Source: Mesorhizobium sp. B1-1-8
Lineage (GTDB): Bacteria; Pseudomonadota; Alphaproteobacteria; Rhizobiales; Rhizobiaceae
Length of the DNA stretch: 64,000 nt
Assembly: GCF_006442795.2 (NCBI RefSeq)
Contig: NZ_CP083956.1
Location: forward strand, 744,001-808,000
Reading direction: 5' to 3'
Positions 31,069 to 54,042 of this stretch are shown piece by piece. How positions within the stretch are numbered: the first letter of the stretch is position 1; every line of letters starts with the position of its first letter. A model generated the notes under the pieces. It was not told where the DNA came from and did no database searches. It saw only the letters and a program-made list of their open reading frames with translations. A program made the position numbers and the translations under genes.

Positions 31069-31232
31069 CTTCGTCATCCCAGGGCGAAGCAAGGAGCGTA
31101 GCGACGCAGCGCAGACCCTGGGATCCATTCCGTGACTGTCGAGTGGCCTCTACTTGTACAGAAATTCTGCTCCGCTGCGCCCTTCGGGGAGGTCACGGAA
31201 TGGATCCTCGGGTCAAGCCCGAGGATGACGAA
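31069..31232. repeat. MITE-like palindromic element 1 (no gene)
   Basis: Left arm CTTCGTCATCCCAGGGCGAA...CCCTGGGATCCATTCCGTGA, right arm GGTCACGGAATGGATCCTCG...GAGGATGACGAA. The core contains AGAAATTCTGCTCCGCTGCG. It shares ends with the GIY-YIG elements but has no coding capacity, and it separates the BTLCP gene from the XRE regulator gene. Confidence 0.8.
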
Positions 31233-31287
31233 CAGGGGCTTCGCTTTCTCGAAAAAGCTCGGCGTCCGTTGGCAACTATCCGGGCTT

Positions 31288-35417: not shown

Positions 35418-35450
35418 TTCCACGTCGGAGATTAGCGATAACATCCGCGA

Positions 35451-35980
35451 CTTCGTCATCCTAGGGCGAAGCAAGGAGCGAAGCGACGCGCGCAGACCCT
35501 AGGATCCATGCCGTGACGCTGGTGCTATGCTCCGGCGGCGCAAAAAATCGGATGGAGCTACCATCCTGTTCCACGGAAAAGCTCGAACCATTCCGGGTTG
35601 GTCTTCTCGATCAACTCGATCTTCCATTGTCGCGGCCAGCGCTTCAGTGACTTCTCGCGTTGGATAGCGTCGGCAATGTCGAAATATTCTTGATACCAGA
35701 CCAGTCGCTGCACGCCGTACCGGCTGGTGAACCGTGAGCCGGTGCCCGCCTTATGCTCCGGCATGCGGCGGCCAAGGTCGTTGGTGACACCGATATAGAT
35801 CGTGCCGCGCTTCTGGCTTGCGGTCATATAGACGTAGCCGGTCATCGTTTTAGAATAGCCAGCGTCGATGCGCGTAGAAAGCCATTCCTGGTCCGTCGCA
35901 TTCTACGGCTAATGTCACGGCATGGATCCTAGGGTCTGCGCGCGTCGCTTCGCTCCTTGCTCCGCCCTAGGATGACGAAG
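35451..35980. mobile_element. GIY-YIG element A, 67-bp inverted arms
   Basis: The left arm 35451-35517 and the inverted right arm 35914-35980 are 66/67 identical (the one difference is GGGCGAAGC against GGGCGGAGC). Each arm starts CTTCGTCATCCTAGGG and ends CCATGCCGTGAC when read inward, and folds by itself through ATCCTAGGG/CCCTAGGAT. The only gene inside is the GIY-YIG nuclease. The unit sits just after the secB terminator. No clear target duplication is seen. Confidence 0.8.
35558..35845 (-). CDS. Single-domain GIY-YIG nuclease (copy A)
   Basis: A 95-residue protein that is a bare GIY-YIG endonuclease domain: GYVYMTAS holds the GIY position, TIYIGVTNDLGRR the YIG motif with Y17 and the catalytic arginines, then H31, the metal-binding glutamate E64 (IQREKSLKRW) and N83 (NPEWFELF). 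There is no DNA-binding module beyond the core. A near-identical copy lies at 53631-53912 between the same inverted arms. Stand-alone GIY-YIG proteins are common in alphaproteobacteria with no agreed function; here the flanking arms suggest a part in the spread or upkeep of the repeat. Confidence 0.93.
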   Translation of the reverse strand: MTGYVYMTASQKRGTIYIGVTNDLGRRMPEHKAGTGSRFTSRYGVQRLVWYQEYFDIADAIQREKSLKRWPRQWKIELIEKTNPEWFELFRGTGW

Positions 35981-36029
35981 TCGCGAAAGTTTCGGCTAAT
36001 CTCGACTGGCTACGTTTCGGCGCTCTGGT

Positions 36030-36734
36030 TCATCCCACCGCCACCTTCAGCCAAAGCGCCTTCTCTCCGAGCGTCGAGACCAGTCCCGCATGCGCGGCGC
36101 GGTCGGCTTCGGTCAGGCGCGGCGGCAGGGTGATCGGCCTGGCGCCGATCGTGATGTCGATGTCGGCGACCTCGCCGGCGCCATTCACCTGCACCGCCAC
36201 GGCGTCGAGAATGAGGGCTGCCTGCTTGCCGCCGATGAGCTCGATATAAACCTCGGCCAGCAATTCGGAATCGAGCAAGGCGCCGTGCTTGGTGCGGCGG
36301 GCATTGTCGATGCCGTAGCGCCGGCACAGCGCATCGAGCGAATTCGGCCCCATCGGATGCTTGCGGCGCGCCAGGGCGAGCGTGTCGACGATGCGGCCGG
36401 GATCGATCGCCGGATGGCCGAGGCGGCTGAATTCGAGATTGAGGAAGCCGATATCGAAGGTGGCGTTGTGGGCGATCAGCTTGGCGCCGTCGGTGAAGGC
36501 CAGCCATTCCTCGACGATCTCGGTGAAGCTCGGCTTGCCGACCAGATCGGCGGCGCTGATGCCGTGCACGGCCTGCGCCTCGGCATGGATCGCCCGGCCT
36601 TGCGGGTTGATGAATTTGTGGAAGGTGCGGCCGGTCGGAAAGCGGTTGACCAGCTCGACGCCGCCTAGCTCGATGATGCGGTCGTCGCGCAAATCGAGGC
36701 CGGTGGTTTCAGTATCGAAGATAATCTCACGCAT
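36030..36734 (-). CDS. dnaQ: DNA polymerase III epsilon subunit
   Basis: A 234-residue DEDDh 3'-5' exonuclease, the proofreading subunit of the replicase. ExoI is REIIFDTETTGLDLRDDRII with Asp and Glu; ExoII is LIAHNATFDIGFLNLEF; ExoIII is TKHGALLDSELLAEVYIELI with His and Asp. The C-terminal part contacting the alpha subunit is present. I start at MREIIFDTE. It lies with coaE, aroE and maf in a leftward cluster seen in many Rhizobiales next to the origin. Confidence 0.95.
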   Translation of the reverse strand: MREIIFDTETTGLDLRDDRIIELGGVELVNRFPTGRTFHKFINPQGRAIHAEAQAVHGISAADLVGKPSFTEIVEEWLAFTDGAKLIAHNATFDIGFLNLEFSRLGHPAIDPGRIVDTLALARRKHPMGPNSLDALCRRYGIDNARRTKHGALLDSELLAEVYIELIGGKQAALILDAVAVQVNGAGEVADIDITIGARPITLPPRLTEADRAAHAGLVSTLGEKALWLKVAVG

Positions 36735-36808
36735 TCGAATCAGTTCGCTCCGAGGAGCAGAATCATACACCGGAACAAAATGGCAATGGGCCATGCTGAC
36801 AACAAGCG

Positions 36809-37429
36809 TCAGGAGCGCGGCTTTGCCGGCTTATCCCCTGCCGGTTTGTGCCCTGCCAGTTCGGCGACAATTGCTTCGACTGAGCTTCGCGCAGCATCGA
36901 AGCCTTGCCCCGTGTCGACGATGAAATCGGCCTGGCGTCGCTTTTCGGCATCCGGCACCTGCCTGGCCAGGATCGAGGCGAATTTCTCCTCGCTCATGCC
37001 CGGCCGCGCCAGCACACGCGCGCGCTGGACCTCAGCCGGCGCGGTGACGACAACAATCTTGTCGACGCGGTCGCGGCCGCCGGTCTCGAACAGCAGCGGG
37101 ATGTCGAGCACCGCGAGCGGCGCGCCTGCGGCGCGATGTTTGGCCAGGAAGGCATCGGCGTCGGCGCGCACCAGCGGGTGGACGATTGCCTCCAGCGTCT
37201 TCAGCGCGGCGGGATCGGCCAGCACCCTCTCGGCCAGTCTGGCGCGATCGACCACGCCTGATTTCGTCGTGCCTGGAAAGGCTGCCTCGACCAGGGGAGC
37301 GGCTTTTCCGGCATAGAGGCGGTGCACGGTCTCGTCGGAATCATGCACCGGCACGCCAGCCTCGGCGAACATTTTGGCCGTCGTCGACTTGCCCATGCCG
37401 ATCGAGCCGGTGAGGCCGAGCACGATCAT
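36809..37429 (-). CDS. coaE: Dephospho-CoA kinase
   Basis: A 206-residue kinase for the last step of coenzyme A synthesis. The P-loop [17 protein letters not shown] is at residues 5-21, then [20 protein letters not shown] (substrate aspartate), [24 protein letters not shown] core (here [13 protein letters not shown]) and [21 protein letters not shown] short charged Lys/Pro tail ends the protein. The ATG overlaps the aroE stop by four bases. Confidence 0.96.
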
Positions 37430-38277
37430 CTTTTTGCCGTCTCACCTTCGATATCGGCGACGATCAGGCGCCGCAATTCGGGCGTCACCTGAGGCCTCAT
37501 GCCGAACCAGCGCTCGAAGCCGGGCACCGCCTGGTGCAAAAGCATGCCCAGCCCGTCGACCGTCTTCAGCCCGCGCGCCCGGGCAGCGGCGAGAAGCGGC
37601 GTCTCCAGCGGCACATAGACGATGTCGGTGACGATGGCATGGTCGGGCAGGCCGGCTGGATCGGCGGCCAACGAGGCATCGCCATGCATGCCGAGCGACG
37701 TGGTGTTTATGAGCAGGCCCGCGTCGGCGAGCAATTCTGCGGCCGCCTCTACACCATGCGCGGAGACGCAGGCGCCGAAACGGTGGCTCAATTCCTCGGC
37801 CCGCGCCAGCGTGCGGTTGACGATGCGGATATCTTTCACGCCGCGCTGTTTCAGCGCATGGATCACCGCACGCGAAGCACCGCCGGCGCCGAGCACCACG
37901 GCCGGGCCGTTGCCGGCCCAGCCCGGCGCATGCTCGTCGAGATTGCCGGCAAAGCCGAGCCAATCCGAATTGCCGCCCCACAGCGCGCCCTCTTCCAGCC
38001 ACAGCATGTTGACCGCGCCGGTCGTTTCGGCCGCCTCGTCGCGGCGATCGACCAGGGCGAAGGCTGCCTCCTTGTGCGGGATGGTGACGTTGCCGCCGCG
38101 ATAGCCGTTCTCGCCAAGCGATTTCAAAAACGTCGCGAAATCAGCCGGGGCGACGTCGATCGCCTGGTAGCTGCCGTCGATGCCGTATTTCGCCAGCCAG
38201 TAGCCGTGGATCTTCGGCGAGCGCGAATGCGCGATCGGATGGCCGGTGACGAAGGCCTTTCTCGCCGCCTCAGCCAT
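37426..38277 (-). CDS. aroE: Shikimate dehydrogenase
   Basis: A 283-residue NADPH enzyme of the shikimate pathway that reduces 3-dehydroshikimate. [20 protein letters not shown] binds substrate; [17 protein letters not shown] has the catalytic lysine; [13 protein letters not shown] follows, and [20 protein letters not shown] is the NADP loop with NRTLARA. The family ending [18 protein letters not shown] is present. The ATG lies inside the end of maf (8-base overlap); a GTG three codons earlier is possible. Confidence 0.96.
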
Positions 38278-38869
38278 CGATGGCACCCAGCGCGCGCAGT
38301 TCCTTCAGCAGCGGCAGCAGAGGCAGGCCGACAATGGTGAAATGGTCGCCCTCTATTTTCTCGAACAGCTGGATGCCCTCCCCTTCGATCTGGTAGGCGC
38401 CGACGCTGGCCAGGGCCTTGGCGCCGACATGCGCCAGATGGCGGCCGATGAAGGCCGGATCGAGCTTGCGCATGGTCATGCTGGCGATGCCGACATGACG
38501 CCACAGCACCGCGCCGTTGCGGCAGAGCACGGCGGCGCTGTTCAATTGATGCGTCTTGCCGGACAAAGCCAGGAGATGTCTCCGGGCGCCTTCCATGTCG
38601 GCTGGCTTATGGAACACCTCGTCGCCGAGCGACAGCGTCTGGTCGCAGCCGAGCACCAGCGCACCCGGCCTGCGCTCGCTGACTTCTGTTGCCTTGGCCT
38701 CGGCAAGGATCAGCGCGACGTCTTCAGGAGATACGCCGCTATCCTGCAACGGCGCCTCGAGCGCGCGCTCGTCGACTTGCGCCGGCACCGCCTCTACGTC
38801 GAGCCCGGCATTGACCAGCATCGACTTGCGGAAGGGGCTGCCGGAAGCGAGGATGATTTTCTCGGCCAT
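38270..38869 (-). CDS. maf: Maf-family nucleoside triphosphate pyrophosphatase
   Basis: A 199-residue Maf protein that hydrolyses modified or canonical nucleoside triphosphates. [20 protein letters not shown] is the SxSxRR-like start, [11 protein letters not shown] follows, then [19 protein letters not shown] with the catalytic aspartate, and [20 protein letters not shown] with [16 protein letters not shown]. The sequence resembles the YceF branch (7-methyl-GTP) more than the dTTP branch, but this is a guess. I start at [10 protein letters not shown]. Confidence 0.93.
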
Positions 38870-38960
38870 GGTTTTTCGCCCAACTAACTTCCTGACGCTG
38901 TTGACCCATCGTTTGTCTGGGGCCAGCACAAACTTTGGAGAATGGCCAAAGCCTTACGAA

Positions 38961-39148
38961 CTTCGTCATCCTAGGGCGAAGCAGGAGCGAAGCTCCGTCG
39001 CGGAGACCCTAGGATCCATTCCGTTCCCTCAATCGAAGAGCGCAGCGGAGCAGAATTCTGCGCCATCGCAACACTTCGGCGTCACGGCATGGATCCTAGG
39101 GTCTACGCTGCGTCGCTCCGCTCCTTGCTTCGCCCTAGGATGACGAAG
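38961..39148. repeat. MITE-like palindromic element 2 (no gene)
   Basis: Arms CTTCGTCATCCTAGGGCGAA and TTCGCCCTAGGATGACGAAG at the ends, with ACCCTAGGATCCATTCCG and CACGGCATGGATCCTAGGGT inside, and a core GCAGAATTCTGCGCC. It fills half of the 380-base gap between maf and ppsR; the remainder has no visible gene. Confidence 0.82.
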
Positions 39149-39249
39149 CGATGGACGTTTCGGCCAATCTCCGAGGCATGCGATCCGTCGTGACTTTTCG
39201 ATCTACTCGGCGGCGGTGGCAGGTCCACCTTCATCCGGCTTGCTATCCG

Positions 39250-40071
39250 TTACCGCGTCTTGCTCCGCAGGGCAACGATCGCCGCCGCCGTTTCCTCGAT
39301 CGAGCGGCGGCTGACATCGATCATCGGCCAGCCATGCCTGGTGCAGAGCTGGCGCGCATAGGCGAGCTCCTCATTGATGGCGGCGCGGTCGATGTAATCG
39401 TTCGGCACATAGATCGCGGTGTTGCCGAGGATGCGATTCTGGCGCACATGCGAAATCCGCTCGGCGGTGGCGACCAGGCCGACGACAAGTGGCGTCCTGG
39501 CAGCGATCAGGCTTTCCGGAAGCGGCACGCCGAGCACGATGGGGATGTTGGCGGTCTTGATGCCGCGATTGGCGAGATAGATGCTGGTCGGCGTCTTCGA
39601 GGTGCGCGAAATGCCGATCAGCACGACATCGGCATCGTCCATATTGGCAGGCAACTGGCCGTCATCATGCTCCATGGTGAAGTTCAGCGCATCGATGCGG
39701 CGGAAATATTCGGCGTCGAGCACGTGCTGGGCGCCGACGCGCCGGCCGGCCGGGGTGCCGAGATAGGACTGGAAGACGGTGAGCACCGGCTCCAGCACCG
39801 AAACGCAAGGCAGGCCCATGGCAGCGCAACGCTCGTCGATGCTGCGCGCCAGCTTCTGGTCGACCACTGTGTAAAGTACGATGCCCGGTTCCTCATCGAT
39901 ATCCTCGAACACCTTGGCGACCTGCTTTTCGGTGCGGATCAGCGGATAGATATGCTCGATGGCGCGCGCATCCTTGTATTGGGCGGACGCGGCGCGGCCG
40001 GCCGCGAGCAGCGTCTCGCCGGTGGCGTCGGAAATCAGATGCAGATGGAAGAAGCTCTGGGGTTTGTTCAC
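39250..40071 (-). CDS. Pyruvate, phosphate/water dikinase regulatory protein
   Basis: A 273-residue DUF299 bifunctional kinase/pyrophosphorylase that switches pyruvate phosphate dikinase or PEP synthase on and off by phosphorylating a threonine. [20 protein letters not shown] is the N-terminal signature and [20 protein letters not shown] the P-loop; [20 protein letters not shown] and [19 protein letters not shown] end it. GTG at 40071 is taken as the start because it lies just before the family N-terminus; the frame is open a further 12 codons. It is divergent from hemE across the proposed origin. Confidence 0.93.
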
Positions 40072-40460
40072 AAGCGGCGGTTCCAGACTGTGGGCAATTG
40101 TGGACAAGGCTGGATGGAGAAGCCTGGCCGATCAGAGCGACTGTATCAGATGGCCACTTGTCCACAATTCGCCCTGCTGTCGGCTTTGTCGGAGCGTTGG
40201 GGACAAAACCGGGGACCAACTTTTCCTGGCCGAATTCATCCACAGCCGGAAGCTCGATGGCCAAATGTCAAGCCGCTGACTCAAAAGCCTGAATCCGGCT
40301 CGTCCCCAATTCCCTCCAAATTGCGAAAGCGAGTGCGCGACAATATGCTGACTGGCCTTTCGGGGCCGCAGGCGGGACAGGTCGCAACCACCACAACCAA
40401 CAGACTCTTAGAATCAGAAGACTCTTTAAAAATAGATATTTGATTTTTAAGGAACCTGGA
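40072..40460. other. Proposed chromosomal replication origin (oriC)
   Basis: The 403-base gap between ppsR and hemE is the place where the origin lies in Caulobacter and Sinorhizobium meliloti (next to hemE). It contains TTNTNCACA-like DnaA boxes: TTGTTCACA (40064-40072, partly in ppsR), TGTGGGCAA (40089), TGTGGACAA (40099), TTGTCCACA (40158) and TCATCCACA (40236). Five GANTC CcrM sites follow (40278, 40291, 40403, 40411, 40420). A 26-base stretch at 40425-40450, with 24 A/T, lies next to hemE and could be the unwinding element. No experiment supports it. Confidence 0.7.
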
Positions 40461-40474
40461 GAGGTAAGCGCCGA

Positions 40475-41503
40475 ATGGCTCAGAGCCGGATCATGCTGGA
40501 GGTGCTCAAAGGCAAGACGGCCGCTCCGCCGCCACTCTGGATGATGCGCCAGGCAGGCCGCTATCTGCCGGAGTATCGGGAGACGCGGAAGCGGGCCGGT
40601 TCCTTTCTCGATCTCTGCTACAATCCGGATCTCGCCGTCGAGGTGACACTGCAGCCGATCGAACGCTTCGGTTTCGATGCCTCGATCCTGTTCTCCGATA
40701 TCCTTGTGGTGCCCAATGCGCTGGGACGACATGTCCGCTTCGAGGAAGGCCGCGGGCCGATCCTGACGCCGATCGCGGCGGCCGAGATTGCGGCTCTGAA
40801 CAGCGAAACGTTTCACGTGAATCTCGAACCGGTCTACGAAACGGTCCACCGGCTGCGCGCCAAACTGCCGGCCGAGACGACACTGATCGGCTTCTGCGGG
40901 GCGCCCTGGACGGTTGCGACCTATATGATTGCCGGCCATGGCACGCCGGATCAGGGACCGGCGCGGCTTTTCGCCTATCGCCAGCCGGAGGCCTTGGCGC
41001 GACTTCTGAAGATATTGGTCGATCATTCGGCCGCCTATCTCATTCGACAGATCGAGGCCGGCGCCGATGCGGTGCAGATCTTTGATTCGTGGTCCGGGGT
41101 TCTCGACGAGCCGTCGTTTCAAGCCTTCTGTGTCGAGCCGGTGGCCGAGATCGTCCGCCAGGTGAAAGCGGTGCATCCGGATGTTCCGGTGATCGGCTTT
41201 CCCAGAGGCGCGGGTGAGCGCTATCGCGATTACCGCAGGAAGACCGGCGTGACCGGGCTCGGCCTCGACTGGACCGTGCCGCTGTCGATGGCGAAAGAAC
41301 TGCAGGGCGAAGGCGCGGTGCAAGGCAATCTCGATCCGTTGCGATTGGTTGCCGGCGGCAAGGCTCTCGAGGATGGCGTCGGGGCGATCCTGAAGACGCT
41401 GGGTCGCGGGCCGCTGATCTTCAATCTCGGCCACGGCATCACCCCGGAGACGCCGGTGGCGCATGTCGAGGCGATGGTGAAAATGGTGAGGAGCCACCGG
41501 TGA
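40475..41503 (+). CDS. hemE: Uroporphyrinogen decarboxylase
   Basis: A 342-residue haem-pathway enzyme turning uroporphyrinogen III into coproporphyrinogen [23 protein letters not shown] is the substrate-binding N-terminus, then [20 protein letters not shown] with the catalytic aspartate, [28 protein letters not shown] and [24 protein letters not shown] precedes the ATG by 10 bases. It overlaps hemJ by four bases. A near-match to parS lies inside at 40809. Confidence 0.97.
40809..40824. promoter_or_regulatory. Near-parS sequence inside hemE
   Basis: CGTTTCACGTGAATCT matches the 14-base parS core GTTTCACGTGAAAC except for one base, and the change creates a GANTC site (40819-40823). It is about 360 bases from the AT-rich stretch of the proposed origin. 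Weak binding at best. Confidence 0.4.
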
Positions 41504-42036
41504 GCGATATCAGCAACGAGAACAGCACCGGCCAGGCGATGAAGCGCATGGCGATCGGCATTGCCGCTTTGGTGGTGCTGACGGCGCTCCTCTATTTCTT
41601 GGCGCCCGACAGTTTCTATCCCTGGGCCAAGGCGATCCACGTTATCGCCGTCATCTCCTGGATGGCCGGCATGCTCTATCTGCCGCGGCTCTTCGTCTAC
41701 CATGTCGATGCCGTGAAAGGCTCGGTGCAATCCGAGACGTTCAAGGTGATGGAGCGACGGCTGTTGAGGGGGATCATCAATCCGGCAATGATCGTCACCT
41801 GGATGTTCGGCCTCTGGCTGGCCTGGAAGGGCTTCGGATTCCAGGGCGGCTGGCTGCACGCCAAGATCGGCGCGGTGCTTCTGCTCTCGGCGCTGCACGG
41901 CTATCTCGCCGGCGCGGTGCGGAAATTTGCCGAGGATCGCAACGAAAAGCCCGCGAAGCACTGGCGGATCGTCAATGAAATCCCCACATTGCTGATGATC
42001 GTTATCGTCATCCTGGTCATCGTGAAGCCTTTCTGA
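41500..42036 (+). CDS. hemJ: Protoporphyrinogen oxidase HemJ
   Basis: A 178-residue membrane protein that oxidises protoporphyrinogen IX, the HemJ/UPF0093 type used by most alphaproteobacteria. [20 protein letters not shown] and [20 protein letters not shown] hold the conserved His and Arg; [20 protein letters not shown] and [20 protein letters not shown] the second His. At least four helices are visible. The start GTG overlaps the hemE stop; an ATG 13 codons later is possible. hemE-hemJ form one haem operon. Confidence 0.94.
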
Positions 42037-42056
42037 ACCTTCGCCGGACCCCGCAA

Positions 42057-42130
42057 AAGGCGGCTTGCTCTTTCAGACGACCGACGATAAAAGACGGGTC
42101 TTCCTTCCCGTCATGCGCCGCCCTTTTTTT
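42057..42130 (+). promoter_or_regulatory. Structured rho leader with terminator-like T tract
   Basis: An outer stem can form between AAGGCGGC (42057-42064) and GCCGCCCTT (42117-42125). An inner hairpin is GACGGG (42093-42098) with CCCGTC (42107-42112). T7 follows at 42124-42130. It may end hemE-hemJ transcripts or act as an attenuator in the rho leader. Confidence 0.5.
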
Positions 42131-42204
42131 CGCTTTCGGCCGCGCCCGGCATTTGTCGCATCCAGCCGATTTTTTCCTCCCAAAGCCTACCCAGAGTCCA
42201 TCTA

Positions 42205-43470
<1,266 letters not shown>

Positions 43471-43500
43471 TTGGGTTGAGAGCGGCAGTCCGCCCCTTTT

Positions 43501-43661
43501 CTTCGTCATTCTAGGGCGGAACAAGGAGCGGAGCGACGCGCGCAGACCCTAGAATCCATGCCGTTACTGTTGAGCTTTGCAGCGGTGCAGAATTCTGCGC
43601 CGCTGCTTTCTTCGGCGGGCGTCACGGCATGGATCCTCGGGTCAAGCCCGAGGATGACGAA
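43501..43661. repeat. MITE-like palindromic element 3, overlaps a gene end
   Basis: Left arm CTTCGTCATTCTAGGGCGGA with ACCCTAGAATCCATGCCG; right arm GTCACGGCATGGATCCTCGG with CAAGCCCGAGGATGACGAA. The core GCGGTGCAGAATTCTGCGCC is a strong palindrome. The right arm supplies the last codons and the stop of the yyaL-like gene on the other strand. Confidence 0.82.
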
Positions 43662-45682: not shown

Positions 45683-45812
45683 GATGGGCGGCTCGGCTTG
45701 GTGTCGGTGAGTGAAAGCAATTCAGCGAAAGCTGCGCAGCGGCTTTCTGTACGGAATTGCGTGGAAGAAGATACCTAGGGCGGTTCGGCAGGTCGGGCAA
45801 ATGGTTTCCCAG

Positions 45813-47123
45813 ATGGCTTCGAAGGATTCGATCGTGGCGCTTTCGAGCGGCCGCCTGCCTGCCGGCATCGCCGTTATCCGCATTTCAGGCCCGCAGACTC
45901 GATTCGTGGTCGAAACGATTGCCGGAGGCGCGGTTAAGGATCGCTTGGCGGCCTATCGCAAGTTCAAGGCAACAGATGGCTCTGTCATCGACCATGGCCT
46001 GGTGTTGTTTTTTCCCGGGCCCGGCAGCTTCACCGGCGAGGACGTCGCCGAGTTCCATGTCCATGGCAGCCGCGCCGTCGCGGCGAAGATGCTGGAGACG
46101 ATGACCGGCTTCGACAGCATCAGGCATGCCGAGGCCGGCGAGTTCACGCGCCGCGCCTTTCTCAATGGCAAGCTCGATCTGGTCGAGACCGAGGCGCTCG
46201 CCGATCTCGTCAATGCCGAGACCGAGGCGCAGCGCCGCTTTGCCCTGCGCAACGCCGAGGGTGCGCAGAGCGAACTCTATGCGAGTTGGCGCCGGCGGCT
46301 GATCCATGCCCGGGCTATGATCGAAGCCGAGATCGACTTTGCCGATGAGGACGATGTGCCGGGTTCGGTTGCGGATGCGGTCTGGCTCGATGTTGCGGCA
46401 ATGGTCGCTGAGAGCGAACAACACATCAAAGGATTCCACGCCGCCGAGATCATCCGCGACGGCTTCGAGGTGGTGATCCTCGGCGCCCCCAACGCCGGCA
46501 AGTCCAGCCTGTTCAATGCCCTGGCGCGGCGCGAGGCGGCGATCGTCACCGACGAGCCGGGCACGACGCGCGACCTTCTGGAAGTGGTGCTGGACCTTAA
46601 CGGGATGCGGGTGCGCGTCGTCGACACGGCCGGTTTGCGCGAGACGGCAGGCAAGGTCGAGACCATCGGCATAGAGAGGGCGCGGGCCAAGGCCGGCGGC
46701 GCGGATCTGGTCCTGTTGCTGGAGGACATGGTCGATCCGCTACCGGTTGGCGCTGTTCCGACGGATGTGCCCCTGCTAAGGATCGGCACCAAGGCCGATC
46801 TCGCCAAAGCGGCTTCGCGCGGCTACGACATGATTATCTCGTCGAGAGACGGAACCGGGTTGGCCGATTTGCTGGATGAGATCGGACGGCGCGCGGAGGT
46901 GGCGGTTGGCGACGTCGGTGATGTTCTGCCGTCGCGACTGCGCCATGTCGAGCTGTTGCAAGAGACGCGAAAATTTCTCGGGGCGGCGCTGTCCGGGCAT
47001 AGCCAGGAGTTGCGGGCAGAGGAATTGCGGCTTGCTGCGGACCGGCTGGGCAAAATTGTCGGAGCCGTCGATGTCGAGGACATGCTCGACGTCATCTTCT
47101 CGCAGTTCTGCATTGGCAAATGA
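45813..47123 (+). CDS. mnmE: tRNA uridine-5-carboxymethylaminomethyl modification GTPase MnmE
   Basis: A 436-residue GTPase that, with MnmG, modifies U34 of certain tRNAs. The N-terminal tetrahydrofolate-binding domain begins SIVALSSGRLPAGIAVIRIS, the G domain has GAPNAGKSSLFNALARREAA, DEPGTTRDLLEVVL and DTAGLRETAG, and the C-terminus ends with the functional FCIGK cysteine motif. Two ATGs compete, 45801 and 45813; the later one aligns with the family start. mnmG and rsmG follow. Three parS sites lie between mnmE and mnmG. Confidence 0.95.
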   Translation: MASKDSIVALSSGRLPAGIAVIRISGPQTRFVVETIAGGAVKDRLAAYRKFKATDGSVIDHGLVLFFPGPGSFTGEDVAEFHVHGSRAVAAKMLETMTGFDSIRHAEAGEFTRRAFLNGKLDLVETEALADLVNAETEAQRRFALRNAEGAQSELYASWRRRLIHARAMIEAEIDFADEDDVPGSVADAVWLDVAAMVAESEQHIKGFHAAEIIRDGFEVVILGAPNAGKSSLFNALARREAAIVTDEPGTTRDLLEVVLDLNGMRVRVVDTAGLRETAGKVETIGIERARAKAGGADLVLLLEDMVDPLPVGAVPTDVPLLRIGTKADLAKAASRGYDMIISSRDGTGLADLLDEIGRRAEVAVGDVGDVLPSRLRHVELLQETRKFLGAALSGHSQELRAEELRLAADRLGKIVGAVDVEDMLDVIFSQFCIGK

Positions 47124-47136
47124 TTCACGTGAAACG
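47121..47136. promoter_or_regulatory. parS site 1
   Basis: TGATTCACGTGAAACG, one base off the 14-base parS core GTTTCACGTGAAAC. It begins at the last base of the mnmE stop codon region. Confidence 0.85.
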
Positions 47137-47156
47137 ATGCAGCCGATGCCTGTCCA

Positions 47157-47172
47157 TGATTCACGTGAAACA
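47157..47172. promoter_or_regulatory. parS site 2
   Basis: TGATTCACGTGAAACA, one base off the core, 36 bases after site 1, in the mnmE-mnmG gap. Confidence 0.85.
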
Positions 47173-47195
47173 TCCCGGTTAGCGCGGCTGATTTT

Positions 47196-47211
47196 TGTTT
47201 CACGTGAAACG
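47196..47211. promoter_or_regulatory. parS site 3 (perfect core)
   Basis: TGTTTCACGTGAAACG contains the full GTTTCACGTGAAAC core recognised by chromosomal ParB, 39 bases after site 2. Confidence 0.92.
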
Positions 47212-47285
47212 ACTTCGGCCTGCATCCTTGACAGCGCAGGCTCGCAGGCACATGTGTCGGCCACTCTTGAAACTGGACTCTTGAA

Positions 47286-49160
47286 ATGAACGATCACTAT
47301 GATGTGGTTGTGGTGGGCGGCGGCCATGCTGGATGCGAGGCGGCCAGCGCTGCCGCGCGCGCCGGCGCCAGGACCGCGCTGGTGACGCTGCGCTTCGATA
47401 CGATCGGCGTCATGTCCTGCAACCCGGCGATCGGCGGTCTCGGCAAGGGCCATCTGGTGCGCGAGATCGACGCCATGGACGGGTTGATGGGCCGCGTGGC
47501 CGATGCGGCCGGCATTCAGTTCCGCCTGCTCAATCGCCGCAAGGGCCCTGCCGTGCGCGGGCCGCGCACCCAAGCCGACCGGAAACTCTATCGCCTTGCC
47601 ATGCAGGCATCGATTCGGGAACAGAACGATCTCGACGTGGTCGAGGGCGAGGTCCTGGATTTCGAGATCGAAAACGCGCGCGTCGTGGCGGTTCTCCTGG
47701 CCGATGGTCGCCGCCTGGCCTGCGGCGCCGTGGTGCTGACCACCGGCACCTTCCTGCGCGGGCTGATCCATATCGGCGAGAAGAAGATCGTCGCCGGGCG
47801 CATGAACGAGCAGGCGAGCATGGGATTGTCGGCGACGATGAGCCGCGCCGGCTTCAGGCTCGGGCGGTTGAAGACAGGAACGCCCCCTCGCCTCGACGGC
47901 CGCACCATCGACTGGGCATCGCTGGAGAGCCAGGCGGCGGATGAGGATCCGGTGCCCTTCTCGCTGATGACCGAGAGCATCGCCAATCCGCAAATCCACT
48001 GCGGTATCACGCGCACGACGCCGGCCACGCATGTGCTGATCCGCGCCAATCTCGGCCGCTCGGCCATGTATTCCGGCTCGATCGAAGGCGTGGGTCCGCG
48101 CTATTGCCCGTCGATCGAGGACAAGATCGTCAAGTTCGGAGACCGCGAAGGCCACCAGATTTTTCTCGAGCCGGAAGGCCTTGACGACGATACGGTCTAT
48201 CCGAACGGCATCTCGACCTCGTTGCCGGAAGACGTGCAGCTGGACATCCTGAAAACGATTCCTGGGCTCGAGCGCGCAACGATGCTGCAGCCCGGCTATG
48301 CCATCGAGTACGATCATGTCGATCCGCGCGAACTCAACCAGACGCTGGAGACGAAGCGCATCGCCGGGCTCTTCCTGGCCGGACAGATCAACGGCACGAC
48401 CGGCTATGAAGAGGCCGGCGCGCAAGGGCTGCTCGCCGGTATCAATGCTGCGCGCAAGGCTGGCGATAGCGAGCAGATCGTGCTCAGCCGCACCGAGGCC
48501 TATATCGGCGTCATGGTCGATGATTTGACCAGCCGCGGCATCGCCGAGCCCTACCGCATGTTCACCTCGCGGGCCGAGTTCCGGCTGTCGCTGCGCGCCG
48601 ACAATGCCGACGAGCGGCTGACGCCGCTGGCTGCCGGGCTGGGGATCGCCTCCACGGAACGCATGCAGCGATTCAATGATGTAATGCAAAGGCTCGAGCA
48701 GGCCCGGGCATTGGCGCAGGCCGTCACCTTCACCCCGAACGAGGCGGCGCGGCATGGGCTGGAGATCAACAAGGACGGCGTGCGCCGGTCCGCCTATGAC
48801 CTGCTGGCGCATCCAGGCGTCGACATCGCATGGCTGACGCGCGTCGAACCTCGGTTTGCAGCGGTCGATGCCAGGACGGCAGAGCGTCTCGAAACGGAAG
48901 CGAAATATTCCGTCTATCTGGAACGGCAGCAGGCCGACGTCGCCCAGGTCCGGCACGAGGAATCCCGGCTCATCCCCGACGCGATCGACTTCTCGAATGT
49001 GCCCGGCTTGTCCAACGAGTTGAAGCAGAAGATGCGGACGCGCCAGCCGCGCTCGATCGCCGACGCGCAGCGCATGGAAGGCATGACGCCGGCGGCGCTG
49101 GCGATCATCGTCGCGCATGTCCGCAATGCCGAGCTTGCCGCGCGAAGGGATGTTGCGTGA
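47286..49160 (+). CDS. mnmG: tRNA modification flavoprotein MnmG (GidA)
   Basis: A 624-residue FAD protein, partner of MnmE in U34 carboxymethylaminomethylation. [20 protein letters not shown] is the FAD loop; [20 protein letters not shown] and [20 protein letters not shown] are signature stretches, followed by GRCTIDWxS-like [12 protein letters not shown] and [20 protein letters not shown]. The C-terminal helical domain binding MnmE and tRNA ends at RDVA. The stop overlaps the rsmG GTG start. Confidence 0.97.
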
Positions 49161-49798
49161 GCGCTGAGGCGTGGGCGGATCTGCAAAAAGCCGCAGGCCC
49201 GGTTTCACGTGAAACATTCGATCGGCTGCAGGCCTTCGAGCAGATTTTCCTGAGATGGAATCGCAGCATCAATCTGGCAGCGCCGTCGACGCTGGATGAT
49301 GTCTGGCGGCGCCACATCCTGGACAGCGCCCAGCTTGCCCGAATCGCTCCCGCCGCGACGCGCTGGGTCGACCTCGGCTCGGGCGGCGGTTTCCCGGGTC
49401 TGGTGCTCGGTTTCCTGCTCTGCGAGCGCGACGGTGCTTCGATCGACCTCGTCGAAAGCAACCGCAAGAAAGCCTCGTTCCTGCAAGCCGTCGTCGGCCA
49501 GTTCAACCTGCCGGCGCGTGTCCTGGCAAGGCGTATCGACGACGTTTATGCCCTTGTTCCGGAACCGGAAATCGTGACCGCGCGGGCGCTGGCGGCGCTT
49601 CCGGATCTGCTCGATCTGGCGGCGCCCTGGCTGACAAAAGGGACGCGCGCGCTGTTCCACAAAGGCCGGGATTACCGCGCTGAGGTGGAAGAAAGCACTC
49701 ACCGCTGGGCCTTCGATCTGATAGAACATCCGAGCATGACCGACGCTTACGGCGTCATCCTCGAACTATCCGATCTGCGCCCGGCGAACCCGCAATGA
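49157..49798 (+). CDS. rsmG: 16S rRNA (guanine(527)-N7)-methyltransferase RsmG
   Basis: A 213-residue SAM-dependent methyltransferase. [20 protein letters not shown] leads to the SAM loop [20 protein letters not shown] and [19 protein letters not shown], then [20 protein letters not shown]. The start is a GTG overlapping the mnmG stop (GTGA). Codons 16-20 (VSRETF) are encoded by a parS site, a known arrangement in this gene family. parA follows with a four-base overlap. Confidence 0.95.
49201..49216. promoter_or_regulatory. parS site 4 (perfect core) inside rsmG
   Basis: GGTTTCACGTGAAACA holds the full GTTTCACGTGAAAC core within the rsmG reading frame, about 590 bases upstream of parA. Confidence 0.92.
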
Positions 49799-50613
49799 AT
49801 CACTGGCATAGACCCATGAAAACTGGACCGCGTATCATCACTGTCGCCAACCAGAAGGGCGGTGTCGGCAAGACGACGACGGCCATCAACCTGGCCACGG
49901 CCCTGGCCGCGATCGGCGAGCGCGTGCTGATCGTCGATCTCGATCCGCAGGGCAATGCCAGCACCGGCCTCGGCATCGACCGCAAGGACCGCACCGTCTC
50001 GTCCTACGACGTGCTGACCGGCGAGCTCGAACTGGAAGCGGCCGCGGTGCCGACGGCGGTGCCCGGGCTGTCGATCGTTCCCTCGACGCTCGATCTGCTC
50101 GGCATCGAAATGGAGATCGCCTCGGCGCCCGACCGGGTGCTCAGGCTGCGCAACGCGCTGCGCGCCGCGGCCGAACGTGCGGCGCCGTTCGGCTATGTGC
50201 TGCTCGACTGCCCGCCCTCGCTCAATCTTTTGACCTTGAATTCAATGGCCGCGGCCGATTCGGTTCTTGTGCCGCTGCAATGCGAATTCTTCGCGCTGGA
50301 GGGTCTCAGCCAACTGCTCGAGACCGTCGACCAGGTGCGCCGCACCATCAACCCGGAGCTGACGATCCAGGGCATCGTGCTCACTATGTATGATGGCCGC
50401 AACAATCTCGCCAACCAGGTGGTGCAGGACGTGCGCACACATATGGGCGACAAGGTCTACGAGACGATCATCCCGCGCAATGTGCGGGTTTCCGAAGCGC
50501 CGTCCTACGGCAAGCCGGCGATCCTTTACGATCTCAAATGCTCCGGCAGCCAGGCTTACCTGCAGCTTGCCTCCGAGGTGATCCGCCGCGAGCGCAAGCT
50601 GCGCGCCGCTTGA
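49795..50613 (+). CDS. parA: Chromosome partitioning ATPase ParA (Soj)
   Basis: A 272-residue deviant Walker A ATPase that positions origins with Par[21 protein letters not shown] is the KGGVGKTT motif; [15 protein letters not shown] the A' motif; [20 protein letters not shown]alker [21 protein letters not shown] the nucleoid-binding region. An alternative ATG seven codons on ([10 protein letters not shown]) is also good. The overlap with rsmG and the 52-base gap to parB fit one operon. Confidence 0.97.
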
Positions 50614-50665
50614 GCCATTCGCGGTTAATTAGCCGATTCGATTCCGAAACGATCTGGACAGACTA

Positions 50666-51553
<888 letters not shown>

Positions 51554-51637
51554 ACCTCTGGGGCCCAATGATATTCGGCTGATATATGACGTCGGAGATT
51601 AGGGAGGCATGTCTGATATATCGGTGATAGACAACTG

Positions 51638-51668
51638 GAAGGGCCGGCCGCTAAGCTGGCCCTTTTTT
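51638..51668 (+). terminator. Terminator of the parAB operon
   Basis: AAGGGCCGGCCGCTAAGCTG followed by GCCCTTTTTT: stem AAGGGCC/GGCCCTT and a T6 tract. Nearby CTGATATAT occurs twice (51581 and 51613), of unknown meaning. Confidence 0.88.
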
Positions 51669-51704
51669 GCGGGCGTTGGGGATTGGCGAAATCGGTGAAG
51701 CGAT

Positions 51705-51861
51705 TAATCTCCCCCCTTGAGGGGGAGATGGCCGGCAGGCCTGAAGGGGTCGTTCGACGTAAATCGCCAACATGGTCTGTCAACGTAAAAAGGCGCTGGC
51801 GCTCCACGCGCGGCGACCCCCTCTGTCGCCTCCGGCAACATCTCCCCTCGAGGGGGGAGAT
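51705..51861. repeat. C-rich palindromic repeat pair
   Basis: TAATCTCCCCCCTTGAGGGG at the left and CATCTCCCCTCGAGGGGGG at the right, inverted, with a 100-base centre. It takes up the first half of the 514-base gap between parB and the DUF1326 gene; a promoter-like stretch fills the rest. Confidence 0.78.
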
Positions 51862-51910
51862 CATCCGCGCTGCCCCCGCGCTTCCCTTCGCCAGCGTCGG
51901 CGCCTGTGGG

Positions 51911-51946
51911 TTGACAGTGCCCGGCAACGGCGTACCCTAAATTAGG
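51911..51946 (+). promoter_or_regulatory. Promoter and palindrome upstream of the DUF1326 gene
   Basis: TTGACA at 51911-51916 is a good -35 box. The palindrome CCTAAATTAGG (51936-51946) lies where a -10 or operator would be. Spacing to any -10 hexamer (16 to TACCCT, 21 to TAAATT) is not ideal. Confidence 0.4.
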
Positions 51947-52067
51947 TGCAGCTTAATTGCATGCCTGGTGTGCCGATCGGTCGTGGTGAGGCCATTCCTG
52001 CAATATTCGTGAAAGTGGCACCGCCAAAGCGATACGCCGACGCGCCCGACGCAAGTGGGAGGTGCAA

Positions 52068-52694
52068 ATGGCAGTCAGTTGGCAGTTGTCTGGAAGTTAC
52101 TTCGAAAATTGTAACTGCGATGTCGTATGTCCCTGCCTGTTATCCACCAACGCGCAGCTGACTTCGACGCCGACGAGAGGCGTCTGCGACGTCGGCCTCG
52201 TCTTTCATATCGACAAGGGCAATTACGGCGATGTTCGATTGGACAACCTCAGCGTCGCGATGGTCGCTCACGCGCCGGGTCCGATGGCGGACGGCAATTG
52301 GACCGCTGCCGCCTATATCGACGATCGAGCCGATGACGGGCAAGCAGAGGCGCTGGGCGCGATCTTCACCGGCGCCGCGGGTGGTCCGATGGCGGTGCTG
52401 GCACCCATGATCGGCACGAATCTCGGAGCCAGGAAGGTGCCGATAAGCTACCGGATAGAGGGCAAAAGGCGGTCGGCGGAGATAGCGGGCATCATGCATA
52501 TGGCGGTCGAACCGCTGCCGACAATGCGTGAGGACGGGCAGATGTGGGCGGCCACCGGCCATCCCGTCAATCCCGACTGGCTCGCTTTGGCGATGGGGTC
52601 AGAAGGCAGCACGTTCAGCGACCATGGCATGAGCTGGGATAATTCCCGCCGCAACGGACACTACGCTCCAATCAATTGGTCCGGCCAGCAGTAG
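52068..52694 (+). CDS. DUF1326 domain-containing protein
   Basis: A 208-residue DUF1326 protein. The N-terminus has a striking cysteine cluster FENCNCDVVCPCLLS (C15, C17, C21, C23), which could bind a metal, and the rest is the beta-rich core (GVCDVGLVFHIDKGNYGDVR, MAVLAPMIGTNLGARKVPIS). GGAGG lies five bases before ATG 52068. The function of DUF1326 is unknown. The next gene, DUF2182, overlaps or follows immediately, and the pair is often found together, so they likely form one metal-related unit. Confidence 0.9.
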   Translation: MAVSWQLSGSYFENCNCDVVCPCLLSTNAQLTSTPTRGVCDVGLVFHIDKGNYGDVRLDNLSVAMVAHAPGPMADGNWTAAAYIDDRADDGQAEALGAIFTGAAGGPMAVLAPMIGTNLGARKVPISYRIEGKRRSAEIAGIMHMAVEPLPTMREDGQMWAATGHPVNPDWLALAMGSEGSTFSDHGMSWDNSRRNGHYAPINWSGQQ

Positions 52695-52714
52695 CCGTTG
52701 GCGACATAGCCGGA

Positions 52715-53512
52715 ATGGATTCGACTATGGCGCTGACGTTGCAGCGAAACATCATTCTTGCGCTGCTGATCGCTATCGCCGCGGCGGCATGGAGCCTGCT
52801 TGCCTGGCAACAGATCGGGCCGGACGCGGCCATGCCCATGGGCATATCGCTCACCATGGGCATGAAGGCGCCGCTGTTTCTTGCCGTCTGGATGATCATG
52901 ATGATTGCCATGATGTTTCCAACGGCCGCACCCATGATCCTGACGTTCCACCAGGTCCAGGCCGGCAAACAGGGCCGCGGCGAGACCTTCGTCGCGACCT
53001 GGGTGTTCGTGGCCGGATATATGCTGGTCTGGGGCGCGATGGGCATTCTCGCCTTTGCCGGCGCGGCGGGTGCGGAGATGCTTGCCGGGCACGTGGGCTT
53101 GTCCGCGGCGACGGCCGCACGCATCGGCGGCGTGCTGCTGATGATAGGGGGTGCCTATCAACTCTCCCCGCTGAAGGATCTATGTCTGGGCAAATGCCGC
53201 ACGCCGATTGGTTTCATCCTGACGTCCTGGCGCGATGGTCAGTGGGGCGCGGTGCGCATGGGCCTCGAGCATGGGCTCTTTTGCCTGGGCTGCTGCTGGC
53301 TTTTGTTTCTCGCTCTTTTTCCCCTCGGGATCATGAACATCGCCGCAATGGCCGTGGTCACCTTGCTGATCTTTGCAGAAAAGACGCTCCGATCGGGAGA
53401 AAGGATAGCAAAGGTTTCGGGTGTCGCCCTGCTCCTTTACGGCGCGACGGTGCTGGTCGCTCCGCAGGCGCTACCAACCTTCCGGCCGATGGACGCCATG
53501 ATGATGAATTGA
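52715..53512 (+). CDS. DUF2182 metal-binding-type membrane protein
   Basis: A 265-residue DUF2182 protein, annotated in databases as a predicted metal-binding integral membrane protein. Methionine-rich helices (AAMPMGISLTMGMKAPLFLA, VWMIMMIAMMFPTAAPMILT) and the cysteine/histidine motifs LKDLCLGKCRTP and GLEHGLFCLGCCWLLF fit metal handling. About seven hydrophobic segments are visible. The start is uncertain (52715 or 52727). It follows the DUF1326 gene within 20 bases. Copper or another soft metal is a guess from Met/Cys content only. Confidence 0.9.
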   Translation: MDSTMALTLQRNIILALLIAIAAAAWSLLAWQQIGPDAAMPMGISLTMGMKAPLFLAVWMIMMIAMMFPTAAPMILTFHQVQAGKQGRGETFVATWVFVAGYMLVWGAMGILAFAGAAGAEMLAGHVGLSAATAARIGGVLLMIGGAYQLSPLKDLCLGKCRTPIGFILTSWRDGQWGAVRMGLEHGLFCLGCCWLLFLALFPLGIMNIAAMAVVTLLIFAEKTLRSGERIAKVSGVALLLYGATVLVAPQALPTFRPMDAMMMN

Positions 53513-53535
53513 GCAACGACAGGGCAGGATATATC

Positions 53536-54042
53536 CTTCGTCATTCTAGGGCGAAGCAAGGAGCGAAGCGACGCGCGCAGACCCTAGAATCCATGCCGTG
53601 ACGCCTGAGCGCAGCGACGGTTCAGGACATTCACCAGCCAATTCCGCGAAACAACTCGAACCATTCAGGATTGGACCTCTCGATCAATTCAACCTTCCAT
53701 TGGCGCGACCAGCGCTTCAATGACGTCTCTCGCTGGATGGCGTCGGTGAAATACTCCTCGTACCAGACCAGACGCTGCACGCCGTAACGTCTGGTGAAGC
53801 TGGAACCTTGGCCGGTCTTGTGCTCGGGCATCCGACGAGCCAGGTCATTGGTGACACCGATATAGATCGTGCCGCCTTTCTGGCTCGCGGTCATATAAAC
53901 ATAGCCGGTCATGTTGCGATCTTAGCTGGCGCTGTCGCCAACGGCTATTCTGGACGGCAGCAGTCTACGGCCAATGTCACGGCATGGATTCTAGGGTCTG
54001 CGCGCGTCGCTTCGCTCCTTGCTCCGCCCTAGAATGACGAAG
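53536..54042. mobile_element. GIY-YIG element B, 67-bp inverted arms
   Basis: The left arm 53536-53602 and inverted right arm 53976-54042 are 66/67 identical, with the mismatch at the same place as in element A. Here the stem reads ATTCTAGGG/CCCTAGAAT, a paired change from element A. The GIY-YIG gene is the only gene inside. It lies between the DUF2182 gene and holA. Confidence 0.8.
53631..53912 (-). CDS. Single-domain GIY-YIG nuclease (copy B)
   Basis: A 93-residue GIY-YIG core protein closely similar to copy A over its whole length (GYVYMTASQKGGTIYIGVTN, RYGVQRLVWYEEYF, IQRETSLKRWSRQW, NPEWFELFRG). Two residues are missing between EEYF and the DAIQRE helix. The GIY/YIG tyrosines, the arginine and the catalytic glutamate are all kept, so it could be active. 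The differences from copy A show that it was not copied very recently. Confidence 0.93.
   Translation of the reverse strand: MTGYVYMTASQKGGTIYIGVTNDLARRMPEHKTGQGSSFTRRYGVQRLVWYEEYFTDAIQRETSLKRWSRQWKVELIERSNPEWFELFRGIGW

Follow-up and report, generated by a model that had tools for sequence, protein, structure and literature searches.

A GIY-YIG nuclease gene bracketed by CGTC hairpins: a candidate enzyme partner for CGTC-tagged REP elements

Introduction

What does a small nuclease gene do between two inverted hairpins? The question is raised by a stretch of 64,000 nucleotides from Mesorhizobium sp. B1-1-8 (contig NZ_CP083956.1, positions 744,001 to 808,000; hereafter the window, whose own numbering is used below), which holds two elements, A (35451-35980) and B (53536-54042), each with a minus-strand GIY-YIG gene between 67-bp inverted arms. 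An initial annotation, made from the letters alone, saw in them a candidate mobile unit, analogous to the REP-associated tyrosine transposase (RAYT) and its repetitive extragenic palindromes (REPs). We report that the association of one GIY-YIG subfamily with CGTC-tagged hairpins is near certain and that, judging from sequence comparisons, the nuclease is probably the missing enzyme of the CGTC-tagged REPs (CGTC-REPs), on which it would act, by cutting and movement, as RAYT does on REPs.

CGTC-REPs have an unpaired CGTC end (TGTC and CCTC also occur), a stem of 8-9 bp starting with AT and, mostly, a CCA tail; loops are mostly of 4-5 bases, longer in some, and other loops are allowed in Bradyrhizobium CGTC-1 (Di Nocera et al. 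2013, PMC3733652). They occur mostly as inverted dimers with spacers of 20-100 bp, show an alphaproteobacterial bias and include the dRS3 repeats of Neisseria (PMC3733652). In the passages of that defining survey cited here, no transposase genes are associated with the CGTC repeats, which "apparently lack a dedicated transposase", and the enzyme that moves them is left open (PMC3733652).

Results

The arms are CGTC hairpins

Within each element the arms match, inverted, at 66 of 67 positions, and the sole mismatch falls at arm position 19 in both, as first annotated. A feature absent from the initial annotation is that each 67-bp arm forms a hairpin of its own, consisting of a CGTC foot, ATCCTAGGG, a loop, CCCTAGGAT and CCATG. 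The outer end of the window arms reads CTTCGTCAT, as do the listed outer ends genome-wide, with CGTC unpaired, and the tail reads ATCCATG, with an unpaired CCA. The arms of A and B differ from each other at positions 10 and 53 only, and these two positions pair in the hairpin.

The window arm gave ten BLAST matches inside the window, and the hairpin pattern gave 100 hits in the genome of the strain against 0 for the same pattern reversed; the arms are therefore not a product of chance. All 100 hits lie on the 5.7-Mb contig and none on the second contig (C2, about 494 kb). Removal of six chance-like hits left 94 arms at 64 loci, of which 29 hold a plus arm followed by a minus arm, one the opposite order and 34 a single exact arm, so that the inverted dimers run in essentially one order. 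Eight of the 64 loci fall in the 120 kb around both window copies (scan p=0.016). The same genome contains three close copies of the GIY-YIG gene, two of them in the window, and one distant GIY-YIG match.

The stems of the window arms fit a length of 8-9 bp and start with AT, and across the 94 arms 96% of stem cells are paired. Among the 60 distinct arms, 95.9% of cells are paired against 87.2% with shuffled partners (2000 shuffles, maximum 90.4%), figures in which the search pattern itself fixes part of the stem. Stem positions 3, 5 and 6 show alternative complete pairs across the genome; at position 5, A.A is found mismatched in 28 arms. The folding energy of the arm is unremarkable by itself (z-scores of -0.14, 0.00 and -0.45), which led us to reject an unusually stable DNA hairpin, and the case for the stem consequently rests on covariation. 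An Rfam RNA family was likewise discarded, the window giving one tRNA only at the gathering threshold.

Three gene-less arm pairs in the window (starting at 31069, 38961 and 43501), overlooked by the initial annotation, combine arms of two sizes: loops of 4-5 bases occur in the short-loop arms of the first and third pairs (D1 and D3), whereas the long-loop arms of the window exceed this length. At two close-homologue loci (L119 and L132) the loop reaches about 100 bp. By their foot, stem, tail and orientation, the arms fit the CGTC-REP super-family, the long loop typical of the window being the one exception.

Three further observations concern the repeats and their surroundings. At G000:C1:5027395-5028558 (L040), an insertion sequence with an apparent DDE transposase (identified by eye) lies inside an arm stem, with TAGG on both sides. 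A motif resembling GAGATTGGCCGAA stands about 20 bases outside CTTCGTCAT, on both sides, at roughly half of the outer arm flanks inspected by eye, among them window positions 35420-35450 and 35981-36005; this motif could represent a target, an outer repeat of greater age or one component of a mosaic. Finally, the symmetric control pattern CAGTARGN{10,40}CYTACTG gave 0-27 hits per strand within the genus but 0-1 outside it, a distribution suggestive of a further family of palindromic repeats in Mesorhizobium.

Arm type follows protein lineage among close homologues

The initial annotation had considered that homologues might mostly lack arms. Among close homologues (the best 80 of 277 relatives from named genomes) they do not, 68 of the 80 having both arms in the standard geometry; distant homologues, described below, are mixed. 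The exceptions in the close set include contig edges, two armless loci (L170 and L172) and two with reversed geometry (L174 and L183). In the window and 35 congener regions, which were fetched for synteny and independently of gene presence, all five arm pairs in plus-then-minus order and 370-400 bp apart enclose GIY-YIG sequence.

Left and right arms of close homologues are 94.1% identical within an element and 90.2% between elements, and the left and right stems are identical in 44 of the 59 elements in which both are readable, against 17 expected. Protein distance is 0.083 within stem types and 0.131 between them, and none of 5000 permutations was as extreme (42 elements). By these measures, arm stem type is shown to co-segregate with protein lineage.

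The two window proteins match Pfam PF01541 above its cut-off (E=3.8e-16 for A, 2.6e-15 for B) and share 84-85% identity with a two-residue gap, being the close homologues that had been described. The catalytic residues, noted as kept in the initial annotation, fall among Y6, Y17, G19, R27, H31, E64 and N83, which are invariant in 12 diverse members. Judged by a median ratio of nonsynonymous to synonymous substitution rates (dN/dS) of 0.060 over 73 genes among close homologues, the gene is under strong purifying selection. As for the annotated absence of a transposase or HUH protein, it holds for Y1_Tnp (PF01797), the only family tested, which has no match in the whole genome. A known defence system and a phage gene were rejected as identities, since PADLOC returned none and relatives in the phage collection are only 28-36% identical; in PHROGs, one of the two window proteins weakly matches a family of homing endonucleases (E=0.0008).

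Distant members keep the hairpin grammar with other stems

Homologues about 45-60% identical, from other families of the order and from a phylum sample in which 58 of 249 genomes contain the gene, have different stems in the same hairpin grammar, for instance TCGTCATTCCGGCGAAAGCCGGAATCCAG and GTCATACCGACGCAAGTCGGTATCCAG, and the subfamily with such hairpins spans other families, orders and classes. One such gene, in N. gonorrhoeae, lies within an array of GTCATTCCCGC...GCGGGAATC repeats. An inverted-repeat score of at least 18 was reached at 51 of 89 distant loci and in one of 178 shifted windows; a foot-stem-tail hairpin occupies both flanks at 34 of the 89 loci against, again, one of 178 shifted windows, and at least one flank at 61. 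The loop is of 4 or 5 bases in 74 of 97 distant-locus hairpins, and the tail is CCA in 67 of the 97, with a finder that demanded CC or CT. Compensatory differences between the two arms of one element were found at L212, L225 and L226.

Controls were drawn from repeat-rich genomes. In 11 such genomes, hairpins on both flanks were found at 0/10 UvrC genes and 0/10 other small GIY-YIG genes, meaning those absent from the subfamily match lists at E<=1e-15, with flanks that were measured from the domain match and in longer frames may lie inside the gene. Partial signals came from L322 (inverted-repeat score of 18), from L323 and from the UvrC locus L325 (each with a hairpin on a single flank). Y1_Tnp matches occur in 9 of 18 repeat-rich genomes and in none of the other nine, and bracketing was seen at 0/16 Y1_Tnp loci. 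Within the scope of these controls, bracketing is shown to be specific to one GIY-YIG subfamily.

Repeat numbers are higher in genomes with the gene

The initial annotation also asked whether arms might be equally common in genomes without the gene; repeat numbers are higher with it, as that proposal would have it, but the distributions overlap. By uncapped counts of a generic hairpin pattern, congeners have a median of 34 hits with the gene and 12 without (19 and 17 genomes, p=0.008), and genomes from other families of the order 16 and 3 (14 and 10 genomes, p=0.013). In the phylum sample, where the gene-positive class includes partial matches, the medians are 25.5 and 11.5 (44 and 36 genomes, p=7.5e-5), and at least 50 repeat copies are found in 15/44 genomes with the gene against 0/36 without. 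This comparison of 80 genomes took 44 of the 58 positives (the genus and eight others being left out) and 36 negatives, namely 17 listed ones and 19 genomes without a listed match.

The gene is patchy within the genus (19/36 congeners), multicopy and also present as fragments. One congener (G026) has 73 pattern hits and no gene match. Another genome (G050) has 28 hits and no gene match, and its doublets join two different hairpins at a fixed spacing. Over C1 and C2 of G099, CGTCATTTTAATGGATTGATGATTATCCA occurs about fifteen times, with feet and barely a stem, and there is no gene match at E<=1e-15.

Orthologous sites differ in the presence of the element

Related strains do have empty sites, as the initial annotation had proposed to check. 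At the site of element A, the secB-dnaQ gap, 27 of 35 congeners were readable, and these comprise three gene elements, one degenerate gene, seven gene-less doublets, one solo palindrome and 15 sites without an arm. The same gap in six congeners (L264, L265, L274, L276, L277 and L288) contains a repeat that is unrelated and about 180 bp long, CAGCGCCCCCCTCTG ... CTCCCCC/GGGGGGAG.

One gap in Sphingobium plasmids contains a gene element in three records. Two others have a solo symmetrical palindrome there, exactly at the position of the gene element of the three relatives, and a further three lack any CGTC hairpin. Symmetrical solo palindromes number 16 beside 104 arms in G042 and 0 beside 100 in the Mesorhizobium genome under study. 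In S. meliloti Ak57, an internally deleted copy between two arms (L290:1667-1842, CP090106.1) keeps the 3' end of the gene and adjoins a full copy; the S. meliloti repeat is one that we take to be RIME (Rhizobium-specific intergenic mosaic element). Although named pSymB, the record CP090106.1 includes gltA and lpxB, and it may represent the chromosome.

Coordinates and neighbouring genes

The window features are collected in Table 1. The neighbours of the two elements are unrelated, in agreement with the initial annotation: SecB and an RNase_T-type exonuclease flank A, and PpoB2 and a DNA polymerase III delta domain flank B.

Table 1. Elements, arms and gene-less doublets in the window (window positions; C1 positions are those of the contig).
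Feature	Position	Strand	Description
Element A left arm	35451..35517	+	CGTC-REP-type hairpin: foot CGTC, stem ATCCTAGGG/CCCTAGGAT, tail CCA
Element A GIY-YIG endonuclease gene	35558..35845	-	95 aa
Element A right arm	35914..35980	-	Inverted copy, 66/67 identical to left arm
Element B left arm	53536..53602	+	Stem ATTCTAGGG/CCCTAGAAT, compensatory change relative to A
Element B GIY-YIG endonuclease gene	53631..53912	-	93 aa
Element B right arm	53976..54042	-	Inverted copy, 66/67 identical to left arm
Gene-less doublet D1	31069..31233	.	Long-loop arm (+), short-loop arm (-); right arm at C1:775201-775229
Gene-less doublet D2	38961..39148	.	Two long-loop arms, inverted
Gene-less doublet D3	43501..43660	.	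Long-loop arm (+), short-loop arm (-); orthologous gap of congener G031 lacks D3

Discussion

If the nuclease is the enzyme of the CGTC-REPs, the unit described here would be their gene-bearing, autonomous form, a single-domain GIY-YIG gene between inverted hairpins with the CGTC feet outward. The enzyme would recognise the folded arm, as a single-stranded hairpin or a cruciform, and cut at or near the hairpin foot; the stretch between two outward-footed hairpins might then be freed or copied, and host replication or repair would place it at new intergenic sites. Doublets without a gene would be mobilised in trans and would outlast the gene where it is lost, and the solo symmetrical palindromes, which consist of the outer half of one arm and the outer half of the other, could be what excision, or recombination between stems, leaves behind. 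The role would thus be like that of RAYT with GTAG-REPs, played by an unrelated nuclease.

Several results weigh against this reading. No exact junction or target-site duplication could be read at the compared sites, because even in the nearest genomes the intergenic sequence alongside has diverged too far. The gene-less doublets of Mesorhizobium have a centre of their own, differing from that of the gene element, and so are not plain internal deletions of it; for the deletion derivative that does exist, in S. meliloti, the plasmid collection shows no dispersed copies. Seventeen of the 36 congeners have no gene match at E<=1e-15 and 14 of these 17 keep arms, and in the phylum comparison the genomes with and without the gene are unmatched for phylogeny. 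At 55 of the 89 distant loci one or both flanks fall short of the strict grammar, and the Planktothrix, Photobacterium, Spirosoma, Subdoligranulum and R. tumorigenes loci show no inverted repeat above background. Mismatched pairs of loci reached a score of at least 18 in 14 of 400 cases, as lineages share stems.

Homing, which we consider unlikely, is the alternative that survives best. A free-standing endonuclease would cut gene-less CGTC palindromes or doublets and be copied into them by repair, the repeats spreading by some other means. GIY-YIG is a known homing-nuclease domain, with which the weak PHROGs match agrees, and homing would produce gene-less and gene-bearing states at one orthologous site, including solo palindromes, such as those of the two Sphingobium plasmids, exactly where relatives have the gene element. 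It would also require a hairpin at sites where none is seen, since three of the five gene-free Sphingobium plasmids have no CGTC hairpin there and site A is armless in 15 of 27 congeners. The symmetrical solos that would serve as targets are few beside the arms in both genomes counted, the centre of the doublets is absent from the gene element, and the match between stem type and protein lineage would go unexplained unless the arms underwent conversion together with the gene.

A host repair enzyme for hairpins, comparable to Slx1 or SbcCD on branched DNA and autoregulated through the arms beside its gene, is considerably less probable. Strong purifying selection would suit such a caretaker, as would the tendency of repeat-richer genomes to carry the gene, and a small single-domain GIY-YIG protein without an added DNA-binding domain might well cut in a structure-selective manner. 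A housekeeping function is, nevertheless, difficult to square with a gene that is patchy, multicopy and fragmentary within one genus, polymorphic in position at one orthologous site, and bracketed in a fixed geometry by arms whose stem type tracks its lineage. Equally improbable is that an unlinked enzyme, RAYT or another transposase, moves the CGTC-REPs and the GIY-YIG gene was trapped between them by chance: many genomes do hold arms without the gene, but across many families and orders this one subfamily lies between stems that are unrelated, unlike other GIY-YIG genes, Y1_Tnp is absent from the Mesorhizobium genome and from half of the 18 repeat-rich ones and was bracketed at none of its loci, and the cited passages of PMC3733652 find no transposase gene associated with CGTC repeats.

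Our preferred reading, that the GIY-YIG nuclease serves the CGTC-REPs, matters in that few short repeats are more common in alphaproteobacteria and, in the form of dRS3, in Neisseria. A nuclease that is bracketed, lineage-matched and under selection is a direct candidate for the mover of these repeats, and its 95-residue protein is open to bench testing on hairpins. Beyond this, we lean slightly towards a broader proposal, that of a second REP world in which transposable elements, having a single GIY-YIG domain as their sole enzyme and folded CGTC hairpins as its substrate, are the source of CGTC-REPs in several phyla, including the dRS3 arrays and neisserial intergenic mosaic elements (NIMEs) of Neisseria and the RIME-like repeats of rhizobia.

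Comparison with known systems

GIY-YIG nucleases in the service of mobile elements are familiar from homing endonucleases and Penelope-like retroelements. In those systems the domain is joined to a DNA-binding domain or to a reverse transcriptase, unlike here, and they are not known to use such bracketing hairpins.

The initial annotation knew of no described system of this kind, a statement that stands for the pairing of enzyme and repeat and falls for the repeat itself. In the full-text literature, with subscription papers and preprints lying outside it, we found no report, judging mostly by title, that ties GIY-YIG to REPs, RAYT, dRS3 or CGTC repeats; in the relevant part of PMC9465073 a RAYT and a GIY-YIG gene appear as separate entries. 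The arms, on the other hand, share the CGTC foot, the stem starting with AT, the CCA tail and the inverted dimers with the CGTC-REPs as described in PMC3733652, so the repeat has been described before, and what is new is its gene partner. They differ in that the long-loop arm of Mesorhizobium is larger than families 1-4 of that survey and in that a GIY-YIG gene is bracketed by the repeats, the passages cited here naming no transposase partner. NIMEs, which are repeat sequence (RS) elements flanked by dRS3 (dRS3-RS-dRS3), have been linked to many genome rearrangements in Neisseria (PMC9778887); the accounts drawn on here describe them as repeats and phage targets and leave a partner nuclease unnamed (PMC9778887, PMC3898611).

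The closest analogue is RAYT with its GTAG-REPs and their paired form, the REPINs (REP doublets forming hairpins), and the analogy drawn in the initial annotation is upheld by the enzyme gene flanked by cognate repeats and the gene-less doublets elsewhere. In both systems a single enzyme gene lies between inverted hairpins that bear a foot tag, gene-less doublets are numerous at other sites, and there is vertical persistence after loss of the gene. RAYT is an HUH tyrosine transposase related to those of IS200/IS605, whereas the enzyme here is a GIY-YIG nuclease, predicted to cleave, without an HUH motif or a catalytic tyrosine transposase domain, and the foot is CGTC instead of GTAG. The GIY-YIG unit is not a member of the RAYT family, because it has neither an HUH transposase nor a GTAG foot; if the proposed role is correct, an unrelated nuclease fold would hold the place that HUH transposases have with the GTAG-REPs.

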